The notes beneath the pieces were generated by a model. That model was not told where the DNA came from and did not search any database. It saw only the letters and a list, made by a program, of their open reading frames with translations. This document shows positions 1,746-51,167 of a DNA stretch of 64,000 nucleotides, piece by piece. This DNA comes from Rhododendron vialii (taxonomy: Eukaryota; Streptophyta; Magnoliopsida; Ericales; Ericaceae). Positions within the stretch are counted from its first letter, which is position 1. Each line of letters opens with the position of its first letter. Made by a program: the position numbers and the translations under genes. The stretch spans positions 11,942,001 to 12,006,000 of the forward strand of contig NC_080560.1 of NCBI RefSeq assembly GCF_030253575.1, read 5' to 3'.

Positions 1746-2857
1746 GGGGAAATTATAATAAACCCCCTTGAACTACCACCCGGTGGCACTTTGCCCCCCT
1801 CAACTTTAAATTTCAACACTTAACCTCCTTAAACTATTATTTGACTTCGATCTAGACCTTCCGTTTGCCATCCGTTAGGGCTTGGGATGGAAACTTTTAA
1901 CATGCCGTCAAATTGGAAACCAAAGTACAATATTGCCCTCTTCTTTTCTTTTGTGAAAAAAGCCCTTTCATACACAACCCATACCCTCTGCAAATACCAC
2001 AGGCACTTCCGGCGTTACCACCCAAACCAGGAGGACTACAACGGAGTTGAGTACCAGTCCAACTCGGCACGCTCCGACTGGCTCACCAAGCAAGGCGACT
2101 ACATCAAGACCGGTGCCGCCGCAAATGTGTCCTCAAACAGGGCAAGCTCTTCTGATTCAATGACCCTTCCGCCGCTGCCTCCCGCGCCGCCTTCATCCCA
2201 TGCCACGTCATCCCCGTCAGCGACTGCCTGGCCGTCAAGGGCGCCGAGGACGTCATCAACAAGCCCTTGGCATTTGAGATCTCCTCCGATCGATTCACCA
2301 TGTTCGAGGTCTGGGTCAACTCAATTGGGAAGGCTATAGTGCAGCACTCGAGGTCGATGACTCAGTTAGAGGTCATCAATTACAATAGCAAACCCAGGAG
2401 TGGTTTCTGTTATGTAGGTGCGTCTCGATCGTTCTTTCTTTCGTCGTGTTTTGTTTGTTTTGCGATTTGAATTTCGTGGCTTGTATAATCGCTGGGGGGA
2501 TTTGTTTCATCTGTGAAGTATGGCTCAATTTGGAGCATATGAAAGTTGTACTTCATCGCCGATAACGTGACGATTATGAACTAGGACAGAGAAGGAGAGT
2601 GAGAGAGATAGAAGAACGATAATGGAAAAAAGGAATTAGAAGAACTGGTACACACAGACACACACACTCTCTCTCTCTAATCTAGTGCAAATGGAAGGAA
2701 GATGGTAAGGTAATACCGTAACTTCATTCAATTTGTTAACAGAGTTAAGGAGATTCCAATTATTAATAGTTTAAGGAGGTTAAGTGTTGAAATTTAAAGT
2801 TAAGGGAGGCAAAGTGCTACCGGGTGATAGTTCAAGGGGGTTTAACATAATTTCCCC
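1746..2857. mobile_element. Pack-MULE (Mutator-like, gene-carrying, non-autonomous)
   Basis: Terminal inverted repeats of about 95 bp start GGGGAAATTAT at 1746 and end in its complement at 2857. The arms match closely: the CCCCCTTGAACTA block, then a block reading ATTTCAACACTTAACCTCC. The element is flanked by an exact 9-bp target duplication, TTTTTTAAA, at 1737-1745 and 2858-2866. The 9-bp duplication and the long G-starting TIRs are Mutator-superfamily hallmarks. There is no transposase inside. The interior is instead a GC-richer fragment of a PH-domain gene, described separately, which makes this a Pack-MULE. The interior end nearest the right TIR has purine-rich and CT-rich tracts of unknown origin. 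Confidence 0.9.
2007..2400 (+). pseudogene. Captured PH-domain gene fragment (PLECKSTRIN HOMOLOGOUS 1-like)
   Basis: Translation in two frames resembles a small plant pleckstrin-homology protein of the AtPH1 type, which binds phosphoinositides. The first block (2007-2116) contains SDWLTKQGDYIKT. The second frame continues with LKQGKLF, then LAVKGAEDVINKP, then SIGKAIVQHSRS. The fragment is broken: the frame shifts near 2118, a TGA replaces an expected Trp at 2153-2155, and about ten residues before the final helix are missing near 2300. The original start codon is not recognisable; the ATG at 1887 precedes unrelated sequence. The copy is noticeably GC-richer than its surroundings, as expected for a gene exon captured by a Pack-MULE. 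Assignment to AtPH1 is from memory of the family; the breaks are seen directly. Confidence 0.82.
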
Positions 2858-3425
2858 TTTTTTAAACTTATGAGTCTGAAACTTATTTCAGTAATTTTTA
2901 CTACTATTTGTGATTTTTTGTTTAGCTTTTCGTCATAATTTTTGGTGTTAATCATTGATCTCGATGAGATAAATCGGAAAAGTATAAAAACATAGATCAA
3001 TGTTGAAAAAAATTCAATTAAAATGGCACTTTAGACAAGTAAAACTACTGTTTGATATTTTTTTCGTTCAATGAACTTTTTTTTGCTTTCATAATTTTGC
3101 ACTTTTTAGGCTACTCTCGTCAAAATGGATAATTAATTCAAAAAATATCACTCGAATCTAACAAAAATTCAGAAAAAATGAACAAACACACAAAACGGAA
3201 AAAATAATTAAGTTTACCAGTATGAGGTCGGAATTTATCAAACGAACAGACGGAGGGAAAAAGCCACGTTATTTTTTTATTTTTTTTGATCTGACCACGT
3301 GAGCGTGTTGTCACCATGTTGTAAAGGGATGTCGTAAGTACTGAATATACCATTTCTGCAAGTTGAATACTTGTTTAGAAAATTCGAAATGGCTGTATTC
3401 CACGCCCTCCTATTATGGCTTTTCT

Positions 3426-3435
3426 TATATATATT
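3426..3435 (+). promoter_or_regulatory. Candidate TATA box of the receptor kinase gene
   Basis: A TATATATAT run about 90 bases upstream of the ATG at 3525, with no competing TATA-like run closer to the start. Spacing suits a TSS around 3460 and a short 5' UTR. The position is inferred. Confidence 0.4.
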
Positions 3436-3524
3436 AGCTTAATTTCCTTCTCTCGCTTTCCACTTGTAACGCATTTCATTGTGGAAGTGCATATTAACAT
3501 CCTAAGTTCCGACACTATTAATAT

Positions 3525-6500
3525 ATGTGTCCATCCTTAAACATGCGTCTCCATGTAGTACTCCTCTTGTTTTTTTCATTGCTCCTCCTCCTCCTATTAG
3601 CACAACCCAAAGTAGTAGTACTAGCAAAAAACATAACCGCCAACATCGCCAACGTAACCTACAATAGCTTCTTCGTCACCAAGCAGCCCGGTTGCCCACT
3701 CGAATGCGGAAACATAAGGGTCCCTTACCCGTTCGGCATAGGGGTTGACTGCTCCTTGGATTCGAACTTCAAAATCAACTGCAGCACTGATTCAGAGCCC
3801 TTCTTGGACGGCCTCAAGGTCCTATCCATCTCCCCAACCCAAGTTTGGGTCCGAACTTTTGTCGCTTATAAGTGCTACGACCAGGCCGGGAAAGTGACCA
3901 GGGCTAATGGGTCCTGGGCCAATTTGCCGCTGGCTTCGCCATACACGTTTTCGGACACGGCGAATAAGTTCACGGTCATCGGCTGCGATGACTTTGGCCA
4001 AATCGGGGGGTATGATCAAGTTGCAGGGATCTCCTTTGCTGGGTGTGGCTCCGTATGCTCCAACAATACGGACATGACTGATCGAAATTGTCCCGGTATT
4101 GGTTGCTGCCAATCCGATGTTCAAAAGGGGCTGAAGACGTACAACGTTTCCCTTACTAGCTTTCGGAATCATACCCAGGTATCCTTTTTTCTCTCTTTCC
4201 TTTTTCTTTCTTTCTTTCTTTTTTTTTGACAGCCGACACGTGAAAAATAATTAAGGAAATCATTAAAAAAAAATGGCGTAATTACCACAAGTTATTGGGT
4301 ACTCCAACCGCCACGCACTACTCCAATTTCATCCACGTACAACCAGAGGGTAGCCTGAAATCTATATAAATGAGGGCACCATATATTTAAACACATTTCA
4401 ACCAAAAGAATTCATACTAAGCAACGTTAGAATTATAAAAAACGTTCGTGGTAAGAATTTAAAAAACTAACATATTTATTAAGAAAGTAACTTAGGTAGA
4501 ATATAAAAACAAACGAATTGCTTGAATTGTCTTAGCAGATCAAGTCTAAGAGCAATTTACTGCGTAATATTTAGCAACCTTGCTCCCATTGTTAATAATT
4601 CCTGACGTATAAAACGCATAGCTCATGGTTTAGACAATATTTTTTAATTTTGGGCATTATGCAATATTATAGAGTTCCAAATAGTAAGTGGCGGCTTATT
4701 TTCACATTAGATATCTCATTTCGCCTGTGTAATGACATTGTTCTAATATGTGAAATGAAAAATTGAGAATTAAATGATATTCAAGATGTGTTAGAGTGAT
4801 TAAAAGTATATTATTGAACTACAATTAACAAGACAAAATACAAAATATTCATTTTTAAGTTTTGAATTTTATTTTTAAAAAAAAAGAAAGAAAGAAATTC
4901 AATGTGCCCTTGCCCCCGCTTGTCCCATACTACCTCCACCACTGCGTACAACTACATGTTGACTTTTGACGCCATGTTTTGGCTCCATCCTGTACACATG
5001 CCGATTTGCATTTACTCGGAAGATTTGGCGTGGGTTGCATTGAATGCAATTGATTCTCCCATGTGGGTAATTGAAGTCAAGATTGACAAGATTTGGAAAA
5101 TCCCAGGCTTGGATTTAGAGCTCTGGCATGGTTTGTGAACAGGAGAAGGTTTTGTCTATAAATTGAGCTCCTGCCATAACATTAGTATCAGAGTGGGAAA
5201 TCAGAGACGTATCTGGTTTTGTTTTCTGTTTGTATCAGTTTGTGAGAGTGTGAGTAGAGTAATTTGTAATCCTCCTCCTCCTAATATAATCCGGCTACCC
5301 CCCGTGGACATACTTAATTCATAGGGAATCACGTAAATCCTTTGTCTCTGTGTTTGTGTGTGTGGTTGTATTCTGGTTCGATCGTTTGTTTCCGCAACAC
5401 TACAAACTTGTGTATAAATGCGGAGAGTATCATGGCAGTGCCCCATATCAAAGGACCACTAAATAATTACTGACCAAAACGTAACAATCATGTTAGATTT
5501 TCAAATTAGTCTTGGATTGAATTTAAAGCGATGAGATTACAAATGAAACTAGAGAGAACATGTAAGATTCACGAGATGATAAATGGAAGTATACGTATTG
5601 TTGGATTAGATAGATAGCTAATTTTACTGAAAGAAAGATAGAAAGACTTTTATGTGTAAACTCAGTTCTTATGCTTATTACAGGTTTGGTCATACGACAA
5701 ATGTGGCTATGCGTTTGTGGGAGCGCGGGATAGCTTTCATTTCCGCAATCTATCAATTTTTTCGGATCCCACTTTCGCGAACCGAGTACCCACAGTAGTT
5801 GATTTTGCGATTGGGAACCAGAGTTGTGTTGAAGCCCAAAACTCAAACGCATCTTTGTGCCAGCAGCTAGGTAATACTACGTGTACTGATAATACGGATA
5901 GTGGCTCTAGAGGATATCGTTGCCGTTGCAAAGATGGTTATCAGGGCAATCCTTATCTCACTTCTGGATGCACAGGTTTGTTGTTGGCTATACTATTTTT
6001 GTTTTTCCAACTGATAATGCTATTGTTAGGAAACCGAATCCCCAAAATTCAATAATGATACGTACAGATTAGACAACAAAAATTGTAAAACCCTATAAAG
6101 CGGAATTAGGGTTCTACCTCAACTCTCTGCGACACGAACGCTGGTTGAACTTGTTATAGCACGTCTTGCTATAAACCACGAATACTGCTCGATCGTACCT
6201 TATGATCTTCTATCGTATTCCCTGCATGTCTAGAACACGAACCTAGTGTGGACTCTTTCGTGATCTGTTTGCTCTCTCTAAGCCTGCCTCTATTTACTGA
6301 ATTTCAGAAAAAAACATTGATTCTGACCTAGAGAGCATAACGTGTATATATAGGGCTACAATAGGGACCTAAGGAGTAATAAGTCTGGGCTCCCAGTGTA
6401 AATAAGAAAACTTAATCCCACCAGGATTCTATTTCTTATTTCACTAATTATAATTCACCCCACTACAGAATTATAATTGCACTCCCGTCCTTATCTCAAT

Positions 6501-9500
6501 TATATTACGAGCTCTATGATATTAAATACTTATTAATCTCCCCATGTTAAGATTACAGATACCTGTTGATTAAAATAAATTACTAACAATCTCCCACTTA
6601 ATCAACATCTTAACTTGAGACTATCCGCTTAACTTATTCGATATGTCGGATACAAATATCCACCTGCAGGATTTGACATAATCGAAACTTATAAGTTTAC
6701 TCAAGGGGTATCATCAATCCCTATCGGGACGTGGATTCCATTAATAATTAATAGTTATCAAATACATAATATTGCTACCCAACTCACCAAGACTATTGAC
6801 CGTATAAAGATCTCACTCTTTAATGAATCAAAGTCAACAACATTAAATATATACTTCTAATAATTATCTTTGGATTAAGAGCATAAGCATTCATAATAAC
6901 CATGAGATTCCAATTGTCTTATAAAGTTAGTATAAAGACAATTACCTCAATACGGTCCCGTTCAATATACACAAAGTATACTAGCACAATGAGTTGGAAT
7001 TAATACCATTCCCTGTAGTCAAGAAAAACCTACTAAAATATTATGCTACAGTCCTACCGATGGTGTGTCAAATTCCATCTAAGACTGTGAACCATAACTT
7101 ATATTCCACAAGAACCGATGATCCAATCTTCTGTGTGTAAGCCGTACTCTACACACTGGATTATCTACTATGTAGAATAAAAGACACACATGCACAACAT
7201 ATAAAAAAATCATGCAAATATTGCCCATAAAAGATTCTCATCAAAAATGGATAAAACTGATTAATAATTAAATATTAATCCATCATATAAAAACATAACT
7301 TTTACATAATCTCCTAACAAACTCCCACTAAGACTTAAAACCATACTGCCGTGCATGTCACTCTCATTCCCTCTACGTGACTATCAAAAGTCTTAGCTGG
7401 TAAGCTCTTCGTAAAATGATCTGCCAGGTTATTCGCTGATGCAATCTTGGTCACAGCAACATCACCTCTCTGTACGATCTCTCGAATCAGATGATACTTA
7501 CGCTCAATATGTTTGCCCTTCTTGTGAGTCCTTGGCTCCTTCGAATTAGCAACTGCACCGCTATTGTCACAATAGAGTGTAATGGCTGATTCTACTGAAG
7601 GGACCACTTCCAGATCCAACAAAAAGTTTCTAAGCCAAACAGCCTCCTTGGCTGCTTCAGAAGCTGCCACATACTTTGCCTCCATGGTAGAATCAGCAAT
7701 GCAAGATTGTTTGATACTCCTCCAACTTATGGCTCCACCTCCCACTGAGGTAGACTTTCTGGAATTCCTATCTGACATGAAGTCTGAGTGTGTGTACCCA
7801 TGATGTACCAGACTATCTGACTGGAACACCAACATATGATCTCTAGTTCTTTTCAGATACTTGAGTATATGTTTCACTGCAGTCCAATGTTCTTGCCTTA
7901 GATTAGACTGAATTCTGTTAACCATGCCAACGGCAAAGCAAATATCAGGTCTAGTACACAACATAGCATACATAAAGCTTCCTACTGCCAAGGCATAAGG
8001 AACTGCCTTCATTTTCTCCATCTCTTCAGGTGTTTTAGGACACTGATCCTTGGATAGATTGATTCCATGTCTAAAAGGGAGGAACCCTTTCTTGGAATCT
8101 TGCATGCTAAAACGGGCTAGAATGACATTGATATAAATAGCTTGTGATAAGCCCAACATCCTATTCTTGCGATCTCGTATAAGCTTAATCCCTAGGATGT
8201 GACCAGCTTCTCCCAAGTCCTTCATTTCGAATTGGCCGGATAACCACACTTTTCACTGAAGATAACACTCCCACATCGTTTCCGATGAGCAGGATATCAT
8301 CGACATATAGTACTAGAAACACTGCAACTTGTCCGTTGCGCTTCTTGTACACACATGACTCATCCGGACATTGATCAAAACCAAAAGACTTGATTGCTTG
8401 ATCAAAACGAATGTTCCAAGATCTAGATGCCTGCTTAAGCCCATAAATAGACTTCTTAAGCTTGCACAACATGTGCTCCTGGCCTTTTGCTATGAATCCA
8501 TCTGGTTGCACCATATAGATACACTCATCCATATTTCCATTAAAGAACGCGGTCTTTACATCCATTTGCCAAATCTCGTAATCGAGATGAGTCGCAATGG
8601 ATAAGAGAATCCGAATGGACTTAAGCATGGCTACTGGCGAAAAAGTTTCCTCATAATCGATCCCTTCTTTTTGAGTATACCCTTTCGCAACAAGCGTAGC
8701 TTTGAAGGTATGCACCTTCCCGTCTGCCCATCTTTTCTTCTTATAGATCTACTTGCATCCAATGGGTTTAATCCCTTCAGGTGGTTCTACAAGATCCCAG
8801 ACCCGATTAGAGTACATAGACTCCATCTCTGATTTCATAACCTTTTGCCAAAGTTCCACATCTTTATCTTGAAGTGCCTCATTGTAGTTACAGGGTTCAG
8901 CATGTTGATCATTAGGGATCATTTCAAAAGACTCTCCCAACAACGTATACTGACTGGGTGGAACAGTAACCCTTCCACTACGACGAGGTACCGATGTGTC
9001 AATAGGTGCCTCTACAAATATCTCTTGTGGCATTTCCTCCTGCACTATTGGTGGTAAAGAAGTTTGTGCCGGTTTCTCTCCTCTCAATTCTTCTAGAACA
9101 ATTTTACTTCTGGGTTTGTGGTCTATCACATAGTTCTCTTCTAAGAACCGGGCATTAGTGCTAACAATGACCTTCTTATCCGCAGGACTATAAAACAGTC
9201 CACCTCTCATTCCTATAGGGTACCCCACAAACAAGCAAACTTCTGTCCTCGATTCCAATTTATCTGCGTTCCCATTCAGCACATGTGCTGGACTACCCCA
9301 AACCCGAACATGCTGGAGACTAGGTTTGCACCCAGTCCATAGTTCTGTGGGTGTAGATGGTACTGACTTAGATGGTACCAAGTTAAGAATATACGCTGCT
9401 GTTTCTAGTGCATGTCCCCAAAAAGAAATTGGTAAATCTGAATAACTCATCATTGATCTTACCATATCCATAAGAGTCCTATTCCTTCTCTCTGCTACAC

Positions 9501-12500
9501 CATTTTGTTGTGGCATACCTGGAGCTGACAACTGGGATGTAATCCCTTCAGCTGACAAGTAGTCCCTAAACTCTCCCAAGAGGTATTCACCACCACGATC
9601 AGATCGTAGTGTCTTGAGACATTTACCCAAACGCTTTTCCGTTTCCGCCCTATACTCCCTGAATTTCTCAAAGCATTCGGACTTACGGCGCATCAAATAA
9701 ATGTATTCATACCTTGAGTAATTGTCAATAAAAGTGACAAAGTACTCAAAATCACCTCTAGCTTGGACATTCATAGGCCCACACAAATCAGAGTGAACCA
9801 ATTCCAACGGCTCTTTGGCTCTATATCATTTTGCTGAAAAAGGCCTTTTGGTCATCTTACCTTCCAAACAGGATTCACAGATTGAAAGTTCCTTAACTTC
9901 TAATGAACCTAAAGGTCCATCTCTAACCAGTCTAGAAATCCTATTCAGATTAATATGACCAAAACGTAAGTGCCAAAAATACGTTTGGTTCACGAAGGCT
10001 CTTTTCTCTTACATGGTAAATTATTAGTGTTATTCAATTCATGCAGTTGCACTATAGAAAATATAGGATTTATAATGTAGAGATCATCCACCAATGAACC
10101 AGAACAGATAAAACGTTTATTTAACTTAATAACTACATAGTCACTAAAATATACCAAATATCCATCCTTTATTAACTTAGAAACCGAAACCAAGTTTCTT
10201 CTAACAGTAGGAACATAAAGACAATCTCTCAAAATTAAACTCCTATTACTACTAAAATTTAAAAAAAAACATTTTCTACTGCAACTGCTGCCACTCTCGT
10301 AGCATTTCCCATATGTAGATAAATCTCCCCATCACTGAGTCTTCTGGTTTCCTGGAACCCCTGCAATGAATTGCAAACATGATTAGTGGCTCGTGTATTT
10401 ACACATCAGGTACTGGTAGATAACACCGCTAAACATGATTCAACAACTAGTGAAAAAGATTTACCTTGTTTGTTCACTTTATTGAGAAAAACTGGACATT
10501 CCTTCTTCCAGTGTCCTTTCTGCTTGCAGTGAAAACACTTGCCCGTAGGCTTTTTCACTCCACCTTGAGGCACATGAACTGCCTCCACAACCTTTTTCTG
10601 AAACTTATTCTGCTTCTTCTTGCCTTTCGGCTTAGAAGTAGAAGCCTTCTCTGCCACTAGCACTGATGGTGGTTTCTTCGCAACCAAAGACCCTCAGCTG
10701 CTTGGAGTTCCTTAAGAAGTTCCGCCAAAGATAAATGCATTTTGTTCATAGAATAAGTCAGGCGAAACTGCTTAAAACTCTCAGACTGCAGTGAGTTAAG
10801 AATGAAATCGATCTGGGTTTCCCCATCAATTTCAGCTCCAAAGATCTCTAGTTCATTAAGAAGAGCTATCATCTTTAGAACATGATCCCTAATCGGGGTC
10901 CCTTCAACATGGGTGATGCTCACCAATTCTTTCATAGCAACTAGCCTTACTGCCCGATTCTGATCCCCAAACATTTCTTTGAGGTTCAGCATCATATCAG
11001 AAGCAGTTTCCATAGCTTGATGCTGATGTTGCAATATATTCGACATAGAAGCCAAAATATAACACCGCGCCATCTCATCAGCCTTAACCCAATCTTTATA
11101 AGGCTTTGCTTCCTGTTCTGTGGCATTTTCTTCAGGTATAGGAGGGCTCGCCGTAGATAGCACATATTTATGGCCCTCAGCAGTTAACACAATATTCAAG
11201 TTTCTTTTCCAATCAACATAGTTTGGTCCAGTAAGTTTATTTTCTTTGAGAATAATGACAAGTGGATTGAAAGAGCCCATTTTTGAATCTGAGAATCAAA
11301 TAACATAACAATCAATTATGAAGGGCAATAAAAATTTTGAATTTCATTTTAATATTGGTTCCCTCTATCACATGTTAAAAGAAAAACATTGGCAACCCTA
11401 CACACCGTGAAGAGCATACCTCGATGGGAAGTCTCTACTCTTTATCATTCGTGTAGATAGGCACAACCTTTTAATTTTACTATCTAGACACTATACCGTG
11501 CCAAGCAAAATTAAATAGCCAATATAACTTCGGTCCTATAAATAATAATAGTGACTCAGATGGTGAGGATACTATTATTTACAGCTAAGTATATACCATT
11601 ACCTAGCCCCATGACCCATTGTTCCGTTATCAATTACCTCAGATGGTGTAGTAATTCACACAACAATCATCATAGATCTATCCTTTAAGGAAGTCTGTAC
11701 CGATGAGGCCATAATTAATTTTGCCCGATGGGGGGGAAGGTTCTAAAACCATCACACAAAATTAATTACATCATCTACATACTAGTAATGGAGACCGTGG
11801 GATTTATAAAAATAAACTCCCTCTCCCACTTAGTTATTTAAAAAAAAATTTGTGAGGGCTATCAAAAAATTTTAAGTTTGCAAAAAACGTGATCTAGGTC
11901 AAAAGCCATATATTACCATGTTGTCCCAATATGGTAAACTATCACATATGCAAACAATCATAGAAACATGCATAAACATAATTTAGGAAACATAATAAAA
12001 TATGCATCCCAACTATTATGGTCAAAGATACAATCCTTGAGCAACAAGGAATCCTTCCAAACTTGAAATCCTTAAACAATAAGGAATCCTTCCAAACTTG
12101 AAATCCTTCGGCTATACTTGTGTAGAAGACTTAGATAGTTTGAATTAATCAAGAAAAACAAAATCCAACCGTGCTTAGGCAAGAAATTTCGGATTTAACA
12201 TATTCCCGCGTAAACTGCACAGCCTTCAGTGTTTTGGCCATATCTTCTTCATCTGACCTTCAATTGAAGTGATTCAAATTGGGTTGGATTCGAAATTCAA
12301 TTATCTACGACTTTTGTGAAGAACAGATTTTCTGATTCCAATGTTTACTGGGTCGAAAGAGCCCTGCAATCAGACCCTACGAATCTGGAAAAAAACTGTT
12401 GCGAGCCAAATAACTTGAATCTTTTGTATCTACCATCTTCGATCTCCGAATAACCGTCGAATACTAGTACAATCGAAGAAACATACAAATATCGATCTTA

Positions 12501-40791: not shown

Positions 40792-43700
40792 TTAGATGTC
40801 AGCAGTAAGAAAGTTTCCCGACAAAGTAACCTGTAAAATGCATTCCAAGTTAGGAATCTCCTTACAATCTACACCAGCAATTATCAATTTTTTAAGCAAC
40901 AGCAATTTTAATTAAAGCTGGCTATTAGGTCGAACATATACCTTCTCACCAAGTTTGAAAGGAGGGAGACCCTTGTAAGGGCATGTACTGCACCGAAAAG
41001 CATCACCTAGTCCACACTGCAGGTTCATCCAATTTCCAAAGAGAACAAATTGAGACAAACATGAGACAAAGTTCCAATGAAAGAAAAGTACAAGTGAGAC
41101 AAGCACAGAGGTTTGGCCAAATTTCATGCGCCCTTGAGATTAAGGAGGCTACTTTTCTCTCTACATTATTGGTTATCCATTCCACTGTTTCCATATAAGG
41201 AAACCATTTTAACACTCCCCCTTTATTAGGGCTGTAAATGAACTGAGCCATTCGCGAACTGTTCGAGACTCGGTTCGATAAGAGCTCGTTCGAGTTCGAT
41301 TCGTCTGCTAAATGAACTGAACCTGAACCTCAATTCTAGGCTCGTTCCGTAAATGAGCCGAACCTGAGCCTAACGGTATTCGGCTCGGTTAGGTTCGCGA
41401 ACCTATACTTAAATTTAATTAATAATTCAATAGGGGTCTATTTGTAAATGTTAAAATTTTTAAGGTTGTATATATAATTCAATACTTATTTTTCTCCCAA
41501 ATTATATACGATCAATGAGAGAGTTTGGATTCGCTTGAGTTTAATGAGCTGAGCCGAATCAAACCTGAGTCTTGACGAGCTCAATTCGAGCTTAAATTCG
41601 GCTCGGCTCGATTCATTTGAGTTTAACGAGCCAAACTCGAGCCAAGATGTTCAAGTCCGAATCGAACCCGAACCAAATCCGAGCCGAACTCGAGCCAGAC
41701 TAGTATCTTAACGAACCCAACCGAGCCGAACCCGAGCCTTGAAAAATTTTAATGAGCCGAACTCGAGCCAAATTGTTCAAGCTCGAATCGAACCCGAGCC
41801 GAACTTAATAGGATTCGGCTCGATTCGGTTCGTTTACAGCCCTACCCTTTATAGAACCACACACTCCTTTTTTTTCCTTTACTCAAGTAACACTATGAAT
41901 TACCTTTTTCATTTTCTTAAATTCCAAATCCCTACGCAAATGAAATGCCAAAATTGTGAATTCAGTTACGTAACTAAAAGAAATGGAGTGTGGTTGTACA
42001 AAAGGGGAGTGTTCAAACCACCCACCCTCCCACAAATAGATAAACATACAAAATAGAGTTGGCACACCACATACACTGCCACATGCCGATTGAGGATTGT
42101 CCAGCTGGTCCATAGTCGGTCCTAGCTTCTGTACTTTCTCCTCCTCCTCGGCCCTTCCGCAAGTGCAATTTTTGCACGCTTTCCTTGTACTTCCAACTTC
42201 ACAATCACCAACTGCACAAATGGGGTAATGTGATGCATAAATCAGAAGTTCCCCCACAAATATTGGAGCGAACAAATCCCTAGAATCAAGCAAGTACTGC
42301 TTCGAGAAACAATAAGACTTAAAACTCATTGTCTTACTGGTTGGCAACTGGGGTTTCTTCAAATCCTCTTCAGTCAAAAGGCTATCCTCGTCAATCAAAT
42401 CCATATCATCATTAATCTGGACCTTCGGCAAGCTTTTTGCAGGCTTCTTCTTGAGAGCAAAGGATGAACCAGCCTTCCAAGAAGACTTTGTTGCTCTAAT
42501 CTGTTGAGAAAAGGAAACAACACATGCATCACAGCTTCGCGAGATAGACATCAGAAATAACATACGACCAATTTGATGTATCCTTCAGAAGGGTTCAAAG
42601 AAATGTCAAAGAGCAACAGTGACATGATGAGTTGCGTTAGAACGATTCTAAAACTTCCAAAAACTTGGGGCATCAACTCCGATTTCAGTGTGAAGAAAAA
42701 AAGGCCTAAAAATAAAGTTACAATTATCAACACAATTTCACATTTTCCTGGTAAGAGGACAAAGGTCCAATCTAGATATAAAGTTTAAAGCTGTGTGTAT
42801 GTTACAAGAATACATAATATCTCCACTCAGATTACCCAAAAAGCCAGGAACAAAAAAGTGCAGATGATGAAGTGAAAATAGAGAATGTCATACAAAACAC
42901 TGGTGGTCAGACATTCAAAACCTCTTCTGTTTTTTTGATAAGTTGGGCATTCAGAAACTTGTTGGTATCAGTTTCCCCTGGACCAAGAAAGAGGAAGGAG
43001 TGTGAAGGAAAACTCACGCCAAGAGAGTCTAATGCTTCAGATTGTGAAACCGGCTTCACTGGAAAAATCTGAACATCTAAGAACCCTGCTACAAGCAATT
43101 TGCGCTCAAACTGCAAGGAGATAGGGGGAAAAAAATAAATACGACTTGATGTCAACCAAATAAAGAACAGCATAACAATTATCTCACCATTTTCCCAGTT
43201 GCAGATTTAAATCTCTGGTGAAGTAGGACAGTTCCACCAGGCCTCAACACTCGTGAGATTTCTCCAAACAATTGATCACCAGGAAATTCAGACGATGTAC
43301 AGATAAATATGATTACATCCACTGACGAGGAATCTCTTGGCAGCTCAGCTGCTTAGTCATATGATAAAAATTAGGAAGCAGACAAAAGATAGAACCCAAA
43401 GACTTGAAATGTCACAAAAGAAAAAACTGAAAGAGGCAAGATTTTTTATTCTTTTCCTCTGCCCCACCTTTGGTCTAGATCCAAACCAAAACACTGATGC
43501 CAACTGAGAGACAGCTTCCTACTGTATATATAAAGTGAAAAACTAAAAAATACTCATATTCTTTAACTATCATTAAAAACAAACTTAAGACATCTGGGAC
43601 TTTCTGATACCCATACTAATTTACTTGTCCGGAAAAAGGAAAAAACCAGAGAATGTCACGAGCAAACAGGGAGAAAGGTAAAGAACTAAAGAAAGTCATG

Positions 43701-45893
43701 AGATGAGAGGGAAAATATAACACGAGAGGCAGAGAATCAAGTACAGATGATGAGAAATACTTTTTTTTTTTGAACGGCAAAAGAATGATTTTATTAGGGA
43801 AAGGTTAATGGTTTCCAACCAAAAGTTGGAACACCAGCAGAGGGACGAAGCCCAATACAACACCCGAGGGCCTAAAGTGCCCAGATAAAAACAATAAACA
43901 GCACAAACAACCCAAAAGGCCTACAAGCCCAAATACAACAATAGAAGCCTAACCCAAAGAAAGCGCAAACCTAACCCAAAGGAAACCGTTGCTGCCCACC
44001 AAATCTGACAGAACCACCACCACTGCCAGTTTACACCACTGACATGGCGACATCCACCAAGCCTCCACAGGCCACCCCACGGTAGAGTGAACCGACGCCC
44101 AAAACAAACCCAAACTGCTGCGGACGCTGAACCTTTGCCGTTAGGTGAGTACCGGGCTGCCCAACAACGGCCACGGCAGGAGCCAACGCCGACCGCTCCA
44201 TCCAAACCCGAAAGATCTCTAGCCGTTAAGCAAAAGTCAGAGAACCCACAAAACTCCAACCGGGAATGATGGGCAGATTAATGGCCGAGAAACGGGGACA
44301 AGCACAACGAGGCTAGGGGGTTGGAAAAAGAAAAAGTGAGGTGAGACAGAGAAGACGAAGACGAGAGCCATACCAGAGCTGAACTTTGTTTAAAGTCAGC
44401 AGCTACTTGGAAATCCAAGATTACATGCTGAACCTTGAGGGGCATGAACAATATATTGGCACCAAGTTATGAACTTCCAGGGCTACTTTATCCACCCCCA
44501 AAGCACAAAAATATCTTCACGCTCATCTTTTAAAAATCAATTCCAACACAGGAAACTTATGAAGCTATGTAGTTGGTCCATGATAACGAACCCCACTACC
44601 AAATTGGGCAACTCAAACAACACTAAATCCCGCAGAGAAGGGAGCATTCATGAACTACAAAGTACAAACTGATGAACATATAATCGTCTATTAGCTCTGA
44701 TGAGCCTTCAAATCACTCTTGTCAAAAATAAGAGAAGGAAAAGTGGTCATCTTCCTAACAACTAAGCATTAGCCAAAGCTATTTTGCACAATCATCCAAG
44801 CAACATCAATAAACATTTGCACAAGATTCATGTTAACGCCCCTAATTACAAATCCAACTAAAACAAGACTGATCCCCAAGCCAATATTTTTCAATCTCGT
44901 CCACGTTTCGATCAGTGCATGGCAAAAGCTAATTGCACACAGATCACCTAAGCCTTTCTGTTGAACAACCCTCACAAGATCTACACATGAAAACTGAAGA
45001 GCAAGTAATCAACAGGCATACCGTAGAAAACCACGGTAGACTCATTCACCGCTTAAAACATAGTTGAGTAGCTTTCATCATATGCCAACAACTATGAGGG
45101 CTATCCTCTGGTAAGGCTACAGGTTGCGATATTCAGACCCATCTCAAATTGTCATGTGTATTGCAGCATAAATGCCAAAACAGTAGTTGTTTGGCACTTG
45201 TGGTGATGGTGCATCGTAGGAAGAGAAAGTACGAGATGAAGATAGTGACGCTTGATGCTAATGAGTAATGAAGACAGTCATGACACAAGCTGTTTGTACA
45301 CACACACACACTCATATATATGTTTTTAAAAACAGTTGACTAACAAAAAAGCATTGAGAAATACGGAAGCTTCATTCTCTCTCACTTATTTTACTGTTCT
45401 GTGATTTCCAAAAACAAAAACACAAGGGACCAAAATGAACAAGCACCCTCCCACTTGCTACCCAAATGTTGAAAAACATATCCCACGATACTAGAGACTA
45501 AAAAGCAAAACACAGAACGTAAATAAAGAATACAATGACAAAAAGGGGTACAAGGAAAGCTACAGCATCTCTAACAGCCTCACATCACCCATATTTAGGC
45601 AAAATAGCTAGCGAATCGCTGAAAAAGGCTTCTAAGTTCTAAAAGCAAGCTCCATCCTCGCCAATTTGTTTTTGAGCAACAGTCCCTAGACATTTCTGGC
45701 TAGTCACAGTAGCGCTAACCAACATTTTACTTTTTATTTGTTGACACAGGTTGCTTTCCTTTACCCAAGCAATCTCATTTCAGATGAAACCCATTCAATG
45801 AATCTCTTTGGGTTTCAACAGAGCACCAACCATGAATGCCATTGCCACCTCTCTTCAACAGAGCACCAACCATGAATGCCACCGCTAGTTTAC

Positions 45894-45957
<64 letters not shown>

Positions 45958-48900
45958 AGCGCACGCACACACAAATTTAGGGCTTGAACCAAGTTGTAAT
46001 TCATATTGGGAAGCAAAACTTGAAAAGTGTAAGCCAAATACAGATGATTCATGTGAATCCATATAGAATAATTTTGTTGCTTTGTAGTCCTTCACTATCT
46101 ACTCTTTTTTTGACACGCCTTCACTATCTACTCATTCTTCACTTAGTCACTCTTTATAGAGAAATCGAGCTTAGATGAAAACCCGAGGAAACAGTTGAAA
46201 TAGGAGGGGCTATGCTATTAAAAAAATGAAAAAAGAGTCCATGGAGATGTTAAGGATGGTTTATGTTGGAAGAAAAAGAGGTAGTGCAGTTCTGACACAT
46301 CCTCTTTCTTCCACGAGAGAGTTTCCTTGGCAGAGCATTTGAAAGGTGAGGGCCCCTTCTAACATAGCTATCAATATTTGCATGGATGGCACTCATGGCC
46401 AGAATTTGAAGATTGATAACCTCGTTGGTAGAAGAAACTTTATGGTCAAGACGTGTTGCATGTGCAAAGACAATGAGGAAACAGTGCCACACCATCCGTA
46501 GGGGAATTTTGGAAATTGATGTATGCTCTATTTGGGAGTCATTGGATGTGTGATAGTCATGCAGCCGGGGTGTTGGGGCGTATAAGGGATGAGGAGAGAA
46601 AGGCTTCGTTGCTTGAGCATTGTGTCGCATGTGATTTGATTTGGTTGGAGAGGAATAGAAGATATTTTCATGGTATGGACAAGCCAGCTTCCCATAATAT
46701 TAGCACTTTGTACACTTGGGTCTTGGGTTTAGTACTTTAGTGGTGCCTAGCTTACACTCTATTCAAGATTTTCAAGATTTTCAGGATCCCTTCTAACTAA
46801 GAACAATAGGCTTTTCATGCATTATGTCTTTCTAGGTTTCCCTCTTCCGTAAATAGGTGGCATACCCTCCCTGATTATATTTTGCATTACTCATCAAAAA
46901 AGTAAAAGAGGAGATGCATATAGCTTCCATAGTTTGAACAGAGATAACTATACAATCATAGGAAAAGAAACCAACACTGATGTAGAGGATTAAAGCAACA
47001 CATGAATACTTGAGCAAAGCAAGAGAAACATACTTAGCAATGAAGCTTGAGTGATGATCAGAGGATCAAACTGTTCCACTCCTTCATTCTTTATCAACTT
47101 AATAGCATTTAAAACTGCACTAATAGGCAAAACTGCCATATCAGTAAGCGCCAATATACTACCCTGCATCACTTTAGTGTCCTGCAAAAGAAAATGAGAA
47201 AAGAGATTCATATGGCATGTTCTTCCACAATGTATTACATTTAACTACTTAATGCAGCAATAGTTCTCAAAACCTCCATCTCCAAAGTTTGCTTACACTA
47301 AGTTTGGAGCTTGTGCGAAGAAAGGGAAGTGTGATGAGGGTGTAAGAGCATCCACAATGGCCTAACCGAAGTGGATAATCGAAACATGCTACGTTAGCTT
47401 TTGATTATCCAGTTAGATGTTGCTAAAGTTAAAAATGTCCTGGCCCATATTGGTCATAATTAAAAACAATTGACCCACTGCGTCTATTTAGACATTCCAT
47501 GGTTAATTTCACACCTATTTCGTCCCTCCAATTCTTCCCACTCTCTTCCTGGTCATTTTTTAGTCCAGTAATATCATTCCCTACAATTCTCTCTTCTCAC
47601 CCTTCAATGGAATCCCACCTCTCTCAAATTATGGAATCACAAACACAAGGCCAAAATGGAAATAAAAAATCAAAAGAAAACAAAGAAATCAATTACTCAC
47701 AAGATGAAGATGAAACGCTAATGAAAGCTTGGCTACATATTTCTGGAGATGCGGTGGTCAGAAGGGATCAAAAGTGCAAAATTATGGATGCGAGTTCTAC
47801 AAAGTTTCCATCAATTTCTGGGCATAATTACGGAGAGAAATGCTCAAGGCCTGCAAAATAGGTGGCTAACTATTTCACATGATGTCTCCAAGTTTTGTGG
47901 GTATTACAACAAGATCGGACAATTGAATCCTAGCGGATGGAATGATCGAATGATATTTGATCAAACGCCAAAAACTAATATCATTTGATCATTCCATCCA
48001 TAGTTGTCAAATCGTGAATCAAATCGAGAATCGAAATGGTCATTTTTCGAATCGTGAATCGAATCGAATCGTGAATCGCTCTGATTCAGTCATGACTTCT
48101 ATAATGCATAGAAACCTATGCTTATTGATTAGGGTAACAACAATATATACTACAAATAAAAGATTTAGACCTAAATCAATAAATACTTTCTTCTAAATGA
48201 TGATTTGATAATAACGTGGAATATTAGGTAAGTTGCTTCTATTGCTACTACCAAGAGATGATGATTCGTAAAGCCTACTTATGGTTCTTTTTGTACGAAA
48301 GAGTTATAAGTACAAAACAAACCCTTAGAAGGCCTATTCCATTTATCTTCCTCATTTTCGATTCACTCTTGTAATAAATCTCTTTTTCTTATTATCAATC
48401 CATATAACATAGACAATAGATGATATATAACAATACTAGACCTTAAAAAAATATTTGAACCCTTTTCAAACAAAAAAAGAAGCAAAACAAGAGAAAAATG
48501 AATTTCGGAAATTTTAAGTGAATCGAACGATTCACTGATTCACTTACGATTCTCAGTTATTTCCGATTCGGCAGCCTATTCGTATCGATTACCCACCGAA
48601 TCGTATCGAATCGTACGATATGAATCGTAAATCACCGATTCACTTACGATTCTCAGCTATTTCCGATTCGGCAGCCTATTCGTATCGATTACCCACCGAA
48701 TCGTATCGAATCGTACGATACGAATCGTGAATCGTACGATTCTGACAACTATGATTCCATCCGCTAGGATTCAATCGTCCGATCTTGTTGTAATACGCAC
48801 AAAACTTGAAGACATCATGTGAAATAGTTAGCCACCTATTTTGCAAGCCTTGAGCATTTCTCGCTGTGATTCTGCCCAGAAATTGATGGAAACTTTGTAG

Positions 48901-51167
48901 AACTCACTTCCGTAACTTTGTAAACTTTTGATCCCTTCCGACCACTGCATCTCTGGAAATATGTAACCAAGCTTTTACAAGTGCTCATCTTCATCTTGTA
49001 AGTAATTGGTTTTCCTCGTTTTCTTTTGATTCTTTGTTTCCATTTGGCTTTGGTTTGTGTTTGTGATTCCATAATTTGGGAGGATTGAGAGAAGTGGGAT
49101 TCAATTGAAGGACGAGAGAAGAAAGAATTGGAGGGAATGATATTACTAAACCAAAAAATGGCCAGGAGAGCTAGAAGAATTGGAGGGGACGAAATAGAGG
49201 AAAAAGAATAGGAGGGATGAAATACACGGGAAATTAACGGTGGAATGTCAAAATAGACACAGCTGGCAGTGGGTCCATTTCTTTTTATTATGGACAAAAA
49301 ATGACTTATGTGGGACTTGACATTGCTAACTTTAGCAACCTCTCAATGAATAATCAAAAGCCAATGTGGATAGTTTTGACTATCTATTTTTGGTTAGGCC
49401 AACTTGGATGCTCTCATACCATTTTACTATTTTCTCTTTCTCATTCTTCTCAAACTAAACAATGAATCTTCCCTTCCTTTACACATGCTCCATACATATT
49501 AATTTTTGATGCAATTAAAATGTGAGTTAGTTTTTTTGAAGCTGACTCACATTAATTTCCTAAACTACCCCTAACTGCCTAACAAAACAAAACAAAACTG
49601 CCGAGAAGAAAAACAAATTGCCTAACCTAATTTTGTTCTCCCCTCTTCTACATTCACATCTCACATTTCATTAGAGATTAATCTTAATTGAAGATTTTCC
49701 TTTTTCTCTCTTTTGCATAATACATTTGCACATGCATTGCATGGCACATGCACGTCTAGTATATTATACAAGACAAATACTAGAGAGGAAAGTTAAGAAA
49801 AGGAAATATTAGTGAAAATGATAAACAAATGTGGGAAACCCAAAATCTTTATGGGGCATTTAAATAGGAGTCCTAGGCTCTATGTACTCTTTAATATTCT
49901 CGTTCTTGACCCAGATTATCTTTTAATCCTCCTCTTTTTTAAAACCCAAGAGTACCCTTTCTCTCTCACAATCTTTCAACTATCTCTCTCTTAATCTTCT
50001 CTTCAATCATCTCCCTAAAATCTGCAATCAAATTTTACTAAAACAAGCACAAAAGTCTGAAAAATAAGCCTATCAAATACTATCATTTTGATGCTAAAAT
50101 AATGATATATGTACATTACTTACCAAAACTGAGGAAGATTATAAAAATCTAGATTGTGCAAGAATAAATATGATTATAAAACAAAGGAAGATTATAAAAA
50201 TTAAGATAACATGCCTTAAACAAGAATAATGATAAAAAATATCATAATAATTGAATTGATCAAAATACATTTACAACCGCTAGTCCAAAATACAAGTTCC
50301 CAAGCTCTTTAGGAATTATGATAAATTTTCCAGTAGTAAAATCATAATAACCGAATCTACCATAAGGGAATCTGCTAGTTCAAAACATAAGTGACCGATT
50401 TTTGGGAATTATAACAAATTCATCATAATAACTAAATCAAATTTATCATAATAACTAAATCTACCCTAAGAAATCTTGCAACAAATAAACTTGCCATAGC
50501 TTCTACAGTATTCATAACAAATTTATCACACTTTCTGAAACGAAATTGACCACACAATTACTGGGAAAAACAAAAATACAACAATTACAACCTATGTGAC
50601 AAGGACTGGACCCGTTTTCCCAGAGCGAAGATCAAGATCAAACCGGAAAAAAACACTAAGAACCAAGGTGTGAACTTGGCTAAAGGAGGACAGATCCAAA
50701 GCACAACTTCAGTTGAAGCACAAACTTTATTTTCCAAAACAATGGAATACAAACCCGTGGTATCCATCTTAACAGCCATGAAAACCTCTTTCTCATTCTT
50801 TCCATTGGGAGCATGAATAATCCCTCAAGTAAGAGCCTCATGCCAATATGTGTGTTTGGGACAAGAGCAAACTGATTTTTTCTCTTTTCACTAATAGGTT
50901 TGCTATGTTTCCAAAAAAATAGGGCTCTTAATTAGGAGGATTCCACCGAAGGTAACAATGACGTTCGAATAATGAATGAACTCCTATTTATAATTGGAAA
51001 TTAGATTTTTCAAATTTAAGAAAAGGAATTCGCGAATTCTGACAGATCAAGGTGGAAATACGCATGCTAATTACCAAAAGTGTTGCAAACACATAAAAAA
51101 CAAAAAAAACGAATTGACAATTCCAGGGAAGAGAGAGAGAGAGAAGCAAATGAGAAAATTGTACCAT
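40792..51167 (-). CDS. DRE2: Anamorsin homologue DRE2, cytosolic Fe-S cluster assembly, 272 aa
   Basis: Eight exons on the minus strand: 51167-51165 (coding part), 47181-47034, 43348-43188, 43110-43018, 42500-42338, 42211-42075, 41016-40942, 40830-40792. All are GT-AG and in phase; total 819 nt. The length equals that recalled for Arabidopsis DRE2. The N-terminal half is the methyltransferase-like domain ([34 protein letters not shown]). A linker with [13 protein letters not shown] and [20 protein letters not shown] leads to the CIAPIN1 domain: motif A CX8CX2CXC (ending CKNCTCGR) and motif B CX2C-X7-CX2C ([15 protein letters not shown]), then [17 protein letters not shown]2 passes electrons from TAH18/ATR3 to early cytosolic Fe-S assembly. 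The ATG is the last codon of exon 1, and motif B is split between exons 6 and 7. Intron 1 is 4.0 kb, intron 2 3.7 kb. Confidence 0.95.
41227..41844. mobile_element. Non-autonomous hAT element in DRE2 intron 6
   Basis: TIR TAGGGCTGTAAATGAAC at the left, and its complement GTTCGTTTACAGCCCTA at the right. An exact 8-bp target duplication, CCCTTTAT, lies at 41219-41226 and 41845-41852, the hAT signature. The interior is a degenerate array of GAGCCGAACTCGAGC-like units in both orientations and has no transposase. Confidence 0.93.
43756..44375 (-). mobile_element. LINE-derived retroposon in DRE2 intron 2
   Basis: Plus-strand poly(T) at 43761-43771 with adjoining CGGCAAAAGAATGATTTTATTAGGGAAAGG marks the 3' end of a minus-strand copy. 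It shares the terminal ACTTTTGGTTGGAA and CTAATAAAAT blocks with the element at 62096-62431, so the two belong to one family. No RT remains. The right boundary is approximate because no target duplication was found. Confidence 0.6.
45896..45957. repeat. Compound (CT)n(AC)n microsatellite
   Basis: CT run to 45940, directly followed by an AC run to 45957. Just left is an imperfect duplication of about 36-bp period containing CAACAGAGCACCAACCATGAA. Confidence 0.95.
46250..46900 (+). mobile_element. LINE 3' fragment in DRE2 intron 2
   Basis: Broken plus-strand frames resemble the zf-RVT tail of plant LINEs: a segment after FPWQSI, then [15 protein letters not shown], and finally [13 protein letters not shown]. 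Several stops and shifts interrupt it. The copy appears to end near 46890 at ACTCATCAAAAAA, a typical LINE 3' terminus. Its 5' boundary is unclear. Confidence 0.6.
47610..47940 (+). pseudogene. Harbinger ORF1-like Myb/trihelix fragment, left arm
   Basis: Reads [20 protein letters not shown], then [19 protein letters not shown], and after a frameshift near 47815 [22 protein letters not shown]. This pattern (an acidic/Trp start helix followed by LQ.RW..I..DV.KFCG) is the Myb-like protein of PIF/Harbinger transposons, also seen in plant host proteins derived from it. The shift and the lack of a C-terminus make it non-functional. Confidence 0.72.
47999..48753. mobile_element. Non-autonomous hAT element in the loop of the foldback element
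   Basis: TIR CATAGTTGTCA / TGACAACTATG, flanked by an exact 8-bp duplication ATTCCATC at 47991-47998 and 48754-48761. The interior is built from GAATCGTACGATTC-like units and contains a 100-bp tandem duplication (CACTTACGATTCTCAG at 48541 and 48641). No transposase. It inserted after the foldback structure formed, since the arms meet when it is removed. Confidence 0.92.
48836..49110 (-). pseudogene. Harbinger ORF1-like Myb/trihelix fragment, right arm
   Basis: Mirror copy of the left-arm fragment: minus strand [12 protein letters not shown]..., then a shifted region, then [22 protein letters not shown], which nearly matches [22 protein letters not shown] in the left arm. It carries its own independent shifts, so the arms have diverged since the duplication. 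Confidence 0.7.
50585..50779 (-). CDS. Unrecognised small ORF with one membrane helix, inside DRE2 intron 1
   Basis: 64 codons on the same strand as DRE2, open a further 15 codons upstream ([12 protein letters not shown]...), preceded by a stop. Contains [14 protein letters not shown], then the hydrophobic stretch [20 protein letters not shown]. It could be the last exon of a type I membrane protein or a gene fragment left by a transposon. No matching upstream exon was found, and DRE2 splicing passes over it. Confidence 0.25.
   Translation of the reverse strand: MAVKMDTTGLYSIVLENKVCASTEVVLWICPPLAKFTPWFLVFFSGLILIFALGKRVQSLSHRL

Follow-up and report, generated by a model that had tools for sequence, protein, structure and literature searches.

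Introduction

Can a hairpin carried in the intron of a housekeeping gene silence the transposon family from which it was made? The textbook example is Mu killer of maize, a natural hairpin from which heritable silencing of a transposon starts. A locus resembling it in anatomy lies in Rhododendron vialii, where a palindromic PIF/Harbinger derivative occupies positions 47346-49413 of the window, the 64,000-nucleotide stretch of contig C4 analyzed here. The host gene, DRE2, encodes an Fe-S assembly factor; it is a housekeeping gene for which wide expression is expected. A preliminary description of this DNA proposed that the two opposed ORF1 pieces of the element could yield small RNAs against active Harbinger copies. 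Here, the structure, origin, and possible effects of the element were analyzed.

Structure of the element and its place in DRE2

The features of the locus are listed in Table 1. At the place given for it, there is indeed an inverted repeat whose arms hold opposed ORF1 pieces. Its right border at 49413 held, and the left border, given as 47345, was one base out, that position being the last A of the TAA flank. The original loop, first put at about 48 bp, is 19 nt long, since pairing extends through 47935-47957 and 47977-47999. Compared with the right arm, the left arm has one 2-bp deletion, and transposase sequence is absent from the element itself.

Table 1. Features of the palindromic element and of DRE2 in window coordinates
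Feature	Position	Strand	Remark
Left flank TAA	47343..47345	.	Presumably one copy of the 3-bp target site
Left arm: Harbinger 5' terminal repeat, 5' non-coding region, ORF1 exon 1	47346..47957	+	
ORF1 exon 1 fragment, left arm	47608..47955	+	Stops at the splice-donor point of relatives
26 nt past exon 1, like the ORF1 exon 2 start, intron absent	47956..47981	+	
Original 19-nt loop of the palindrome	47958..47976	.	
Innermost right-arm piece, severed by the later insertion	47977..47998	-	47991-47998 is one 8-bp duplication copy
Later hAT-like MITE with CATAGTTGTCA ends, 8-bp duplication ATTCCATC, internal 100-bp tandem duplication	47999..48753	.	
Right arm: interrupted ORF1 exon 1, 5' non-coding region, same 5' terminal repeat	48754..49413	-	48754-48761 is the second 8-bp duplication copy
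Right flank TCA, one base off TAA	49414..49416	.	
DRE2 (CIAPIN1) coding span	40792..51167	-	Hand-spliced, 273 aa, no internal stop; Pfam CIAPIN1 67.5 bits
Predicted DRE2 intron 1 with whole element	47182..51164	-	Exon 1 ATG/GT at 51167-51164; acceptor CAG/GACACT at 47182/47181

Both ends of the element show terminal inverted repeats (GAGCATCC...GGATGCTC), with 26 of 32 end positions complementary (81%, flanks counted). As a 3-bp TWA target site duplication, the flanks TAA and TCA contain one mismatch. Among 15 sites of Harbinger-family MITEs, identical TAA or TTA flanks were found at 11 and TAA/CAA at 1, and 3 were unreadable. A single base change after insertion of the whole unit could account for the TAA/TCA pair.

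The right arm is split by a 755-bp insertion. The family of this insertion comprises at least 39 other copies at 90-99% identity and one 77% fragment (40 scored of 275 candidates). Most of the scored copies begin and end at the same borders as the window insertion, which is therefore a separate, younger hAT-like MITE. The tandem duplication in the window copy lies at 48532-48731 (96%).

The predicted exon 1 of DRE2 ends with ATG (51167-51165) ahead of a GT; exon 2 opens at 47181, which gives intron 1 a length of 3,983 bp. The predicted exon borders enclose the whole element, so that its assignment to the first intron was borne out; the distance to exon 2, estimated earlier at about 170 bp, is 164 bp. 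Judged by its reading frame, DRE2 is apparently intact. Other matches resembling DRE2 exon 2 were found at C6:28002657-28002794 (70%) and C12:19738805-19738939 (61%), and an acceptor of the same kind lies ahead of the exon 2-like sequence on C6. Inside a DRE2 intron, a stretch rich in GGCTCG/GAGCCGAA repeats (window 41250-41850, minus strand) is likely another MITE.

Harbinger relatives and origin of the two ends

The source of the arms was sought in the genome (532,647,506 bases in 13 contigs). The left arm gave at least 44 matches: the two arms themselves, five relatives of larger size, and a set of short matches, all counts being lower bounds with 40 of 618 candidates scored. The short matches cover the first 95-190 bases and belong to MITEs or to the relatives' own ends. 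Of the five relatives, four (L031-L034) carry a two-exon ORF1 and a transposase on the opposite strand, with a Plant_tran match of 250.3 bits in L031; in L035, the fifth, ORF1 exon 1 was present but neither exon 2 nor a transposase frame. Because relatives with the same ends carry ORF1 and a DDE transposase gene, the element is Harbinger derived, as first proposed. The active Harbinger target of that proposal was not found: the longest single transposase frames in L031-L034 were 354, 158, 348, and 155 aa, respectively, and no uninterrupted full Harbinger copy was present among these four transposase-bearing relatives.

ORF1 had also been called Myb/trihelix-like. This term is upheld by homology to Harbinger ORF1, whereas the Pfam Myb matches on the arms (best 15.1 and 14.1 bits) stay below the cut-offs of 21.7 and 27, and another Pfam search gave none. 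Among distant ORF1 loci, one gave Myb_DNA-binding at 18.7 bits (cut-off 24.4) and another gave no match. The NAM-associated domain of a full ORF1 sits in exon 2, and the arms are without this domain.

As had been noted, both arms hold the same part of ORF1: each aligns to the relatives from the terminal repeat through the end of ORF1 exon 1, a region present once in every larger relative (5/5). Over 130 columns, the identity of the left arm was 0.72-0.78 to four ORF1-side ends versus 0.51-0.58 to three transposase-side ends, and that of the right arm was 0.76-0.80 versus 0.55-0.59. By this alignment, both ends of the window element are the ORF1-side end. A transposase-side origin for one outer arm was ruled out, since both arms match the ORF1-side end. 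The sampled MITE loci, 28 in all and drawn from the matches of two genome searches (23 + 5), showed the ordinary pair of one ORF1-side and one transposase-side end in 27 cases and a single end in 1. The right end of a doubtful neighboring element in L015 is transposase-side, which makes a 5'/3' pair.

The center of the palindrome (47920-47999) had no second occurrence in the genome at the sensitivity used, and a genome search for its 5' non-coding stretch (49085-49290) hit the other arm and no further place. With two ORF1-side ends and with a center and a 5' non-coding region that are single in the genome, the element differs from an ordinary MITE. As judged by these searches, the palindrome is a single copy at the sensitivity used, at which a multi-copy fold-back family was rejected. 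These searches brought up its source lineage at no other place in this genome, and the remaining relatives are about 14% different in ORF1. The nearest annotated ORF1 proteins are those of Rhododendron griersonianum and Rhododendron molle, and a phylogeny placing the arms among ORF1 proteins was poorly supported.

Two different source elements, which would have diverged before joining, are disfavored because the 5' non-coding stretch is common to the arms and absent from the relatives (identity of 0.81 arm to arm versus 0.54-0.63 to the relatives) and because the arm differences in ORF1 are spread evenly over codon positions. Over the first 113 columns, however, arm-to-arm identity is 0.77, no closer than that to some relatives (up to 0.80).

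Two further features were observed in the relatives. In L033, positions 2699-3938 (locus coordinates, element orientation) apparently hold two MITEs of the same family placed tail to tail and abutting the TTA site of the large Harbinger copy. Closely similar copia-like gag-pol frames occur at 7338-11295 of the window (minus strand) and at 478-4292 of L034 (element orientation), where they stop about 30 bp ahead of the Harbinger start.

Decay and folding of the arms

When the arms were aligned (47346-47957 versus 47977-47998 plus 48762-49413), 523 of 597 columns were identical (87.6%). With the ends set slightly differently, a previous alignment had 532 matches, 78 mismatches, and 78 gap columns. 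Divergence of 12% argues against a fold-back artifact of long reads. In 12 blocks of about 50 columns, identity rose from 0.78 in the outermost to 0.92-0.96 in the three innermost. This loopward gradient was seen in the pairwise alignment (Spearman 0.67, P 0.016; Fisher outer versus inner, P 0.033) and on the multiple alignment (P 0.0007), and arm-to-arm conversion or alignment noise is a possible cause. Within ORF1, the differences between the arms numbered 12, 11, and 12 at codon positions 1, 2, and 3. This even spread indicates that, once joined, the two arms decayed free of coding constraint, and in this comparison the arm differences are neutral decay with no sign of upkeep.

The preliminary description had named arms too divergent to pair as one result that would defeat it. 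This result was not obtained: in the predicted fold, 534 of the 613 bases of the left arm are paired to bases of the right arm, the longest unbroken helix being 36 bp. The predicted minimum free energy of the plus-strand RNA of the element was -986.8, far under the mean of all shuffles (-458.6, sd 8.9, 12 shuffles), so that a chance palindrome was excluded. Depending on the strand, the folding energy was -987 or -1020 kcal/mol.

A possible RNA step in the formation of the palindrome

In the relatives, ORF1 exon 1 ends with ATGATA followed by the donor GTAAGT. Among ORF1 loci that are more distant, all 12 with a fetched exon 1 also had GT at the matching codon; several of these loci are near-copies of each other, and the comparison covered the donor side. 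The window arms stay in line with the relatives right up to ATGATA and then continue with TTTGATCAAACGCCAAAAACTAATAT, without GT. This continuation resembles the start of exon 2, CTTGATGAGGCTAAAAAACAATAT, with an anchored P of 0.0006 versus 32,366 positions and 0.002 versus 461 acceptor-like sites, both values being the best of four near-identical exon 2 sequences in one of four comparisons; versus shuffles, P was 0.0004. No such resemblance to the intron was seen (P 0.11, or 0.05 versus GTAAG sites). The exon 2 resemblance leans on the last five bases, AATAT (P 0.022 without them). In an unanchored scan of the whole element, the exon 2 start came first in L031 (plus strand), and other places in L033 scored equal or higher; with a shorter spacer, it fell outside the top six in both.

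A 105-nt query joining exon 1 to exon 2 gave 12 matches. Those of the relatives split at the junction, only the left arm matched unbroken across it (query 1-73, 85%), and the match of the inner right arm ended on the last base of exon 1 (query 29-49, 100%). Among the 88 matches of a protein search, only the left arm and the distant C10:2779366 (29%) ran well across the junction. The unbroken match in the left arm is a hint of a spliced source. Statistical support for it is mixed, and the balance tips slightly toward a spliced or intronless source.

That the palindrome was made via RNA is a rather unlikely extension of this result. By this route, a read-through Harbinger transcript would have been spliced, and the 3' part of exon 2, AATAT, would have folded onto ATATT, a 5-base partner existing only at the exon 1/exon 2 junction. 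The fold-back would then have primed reverse transcription to the 5' end, and the resulting double-ended DNA, with two ORF1-side ends, would have been cut out and put into DRE2 by the Harbinger transposase as a hairpin ready to silence the family it came from. A weaker form, in which an intronless source copy underwent DNA-level fold-back, is included in the evidence. If the RNA route were true, a DNA transposon would have made its own killer through its spliced mRNA, and an intron-bearing source with an exon 2 starting like TTTGATCAAACGCC would be expected. A spliced junction, if real, would also offer a testable route for the birth of such palindromes.

Possible silencing by the DRE2-borne hairpin and alternative explanations

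What, then, might such a palindrome do in DRE2? We tentatively favor, at somewhat less than an even chance, a single-copy Mu-killer-type PIF/Harbinger derivative whose hairpin, carried by DRE2, gives anti-Harbinger small RNAs and is now worn. Two ORF1-side ends are joined tail to tail about the 19-nt spacer at a TAA site in intron 1, and the palindrome would have entered there as one unit, as suggested by ends that are both intact and transposase-recognizable and by flanks that differ at one base of three. Transcription of DRE2 would carry the element along, giving each pre-mRNA a fold-back of about 600 bp, and Dicer-like enzymes would cut it, before or after splicing, into small RNAs directed at the terminal repeats and at Harbinger ORF1. 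The latter would be a sound target because transposition requires both ORF1 and the transposase; the Myb-like domain of ORF1 is the presumed end-binding part (available text of PMC2836001).

The matches to the relatives bear on how well such RNAs would work today. Perfect 21-mers common to both arms numbered 34 of 593. Those perfectly matching any one of the five relatives numbered 10-31 of 593 for the left arm and 13-32 of 639 for the right arm, rising to 124-154 and 144-165, respectively, at two or fewer mismatches. With so few perfect matches, present-day silencing in trans is probably weak; it may have been strong against the element's own lineage. Since that lineage was not found and the remaining relatives differ in ORF1, the element has today probably become a worn silencer with few targets remaining. 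Counting against silencing, the usually rapid splicing of introns may keep much of the hairpin from ever meeting Dicer.

The same decay and the same scarcity of perfect 21-mer matches would be expected if the palindrome were an inert relic that arrived by transposition, leaves the transcript together with intron 1, and has silenced nothing, its source having been lost through ordinary turnover. This explanation is a plausible one that likewise falls short of an even chance. It accords with the single copy and with the young central MITE, tolerated next to a DRE2 frame without visible harm. However, a strong predicted fold in an intron of DRE2, for which wide expression is expected, is not what an inert sequence would suggest, and 24-nt small interfering RNAs (siRNAs) arise from 486 of 634 gene-near inverted repeats in Arabidopsis (available text of PMC12595863). 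Such siRNAs could instead act in cis, methylating intron 1 and changing the chromatin looping, splicing, or polyadenylation of DRE2, as described for plant gene-near inverted repeats and MITEs, including sunflower HaWRKY6 and the 634 Arabidopsis repeats (PMC12595863). The exon 2 acceptor lies close enough to the element to make this conceivable, but the two DRE2-like exon 2 matches on C6 and C12 could buffer a loss, and we regard an effect in cis as improbable.

Least probable is a proto-microRNA, in which DCL1 would cut the inner stem-loop at 47935-47999 (23 paired positions and the 19-nt loop), separated by the MITE from the remaining right arm, into one dominant small RNA. The 85-nt center does fold well (-35.6 kcal/mol, z -8.1, with 0 of 200 shuffles as good). 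However, no second copy of the stem turned up in the genome at the sensitivity used, and the five Rfam matches in the stretch searched (E 0.016-0.96) are all far below gathering scores. Four of the five are microRNA families at the inner stem-loop, and all five most likely reflect just hairpin shape.

Comparison with known systems

The proposed likeness to Mu killer is, in anatomy, closer than the preliminary description had it, both ends of the window element being the same ORF1-side end. In Mu killer, the gene-bearing end is the source of both terminal inverted repeats, and the two incomplete gene copies meet in an inverted duplication placed where transcription of a flanking gene can read through (available text of PMC3440606). 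Same-end terminal repeats and an inverted partial gene duplication are found here as well, and the predicted DRE2 intron would be such a placement. The two differ in superfamily (Mutator there and PIF/Harbinger here), in the duplicated gene (the transposase there and ORF1, the DNA-binding partner, here), and in arm length (about 1.3 kb there and about 0.6 kb here, with the arms here 12% diverged). In addition, the center of Mu killer resisted sequencing (PMC3440606), whereas that of the window element, which is intronic, is fully readable. Mu killer may act via short antisense transcripts and not through the long hairpin alone (PMC3440606), which calls for caution with a hairpin model at DRE2. 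In the available portions of the literature, including works that name both Harbinger and Mu killer, no Harbinger case of the Mu-killer type was found; one of these works states that, in general, inverted-duplication copies can trigger silencing.

Tourist-like MITEs of the same Harbinger family share the terminal repeat with the window element and sit at a TWA 3-bp target site, to which the TAA/TCA flanks of the window element correspond with one mismatch. Those sampled differ from it in their mixed pair of ends (27/28) as against two ORF1-side ends, and the window element has coding sequence in both of its arms. Foldback and Galileo-type elements with long terminal inverted repeats likewise have long inverted arms and a short center, but they form multi-copy families, in contrast to a single copy with an ORF1 exon in its arms. 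The gene-near inverted repeats of Arabidopsis and the sunflower HaWRKY6 MITE are also transposon-derived fold-backs near or in a gene, from which 24-nt siRNAs are expected (available text of PMC12595863). Here, the arms hold the transposon's own gene, so that targets in trans would include transposon mRNA.

The locus is thus best described as a known plan, that of Mu killer, in a new superfamily, PIF/Harbinger. The description is apt in anatomy, where the likeness is drawn from sequence alone, and a silencing action would follow by analogy only. A readable locus of the Mu-killer plan, in another superfamily and in a housekeeping intron, would demonstrate a repeated origin of such killers and make it possible to ask whether they outlive their victims.
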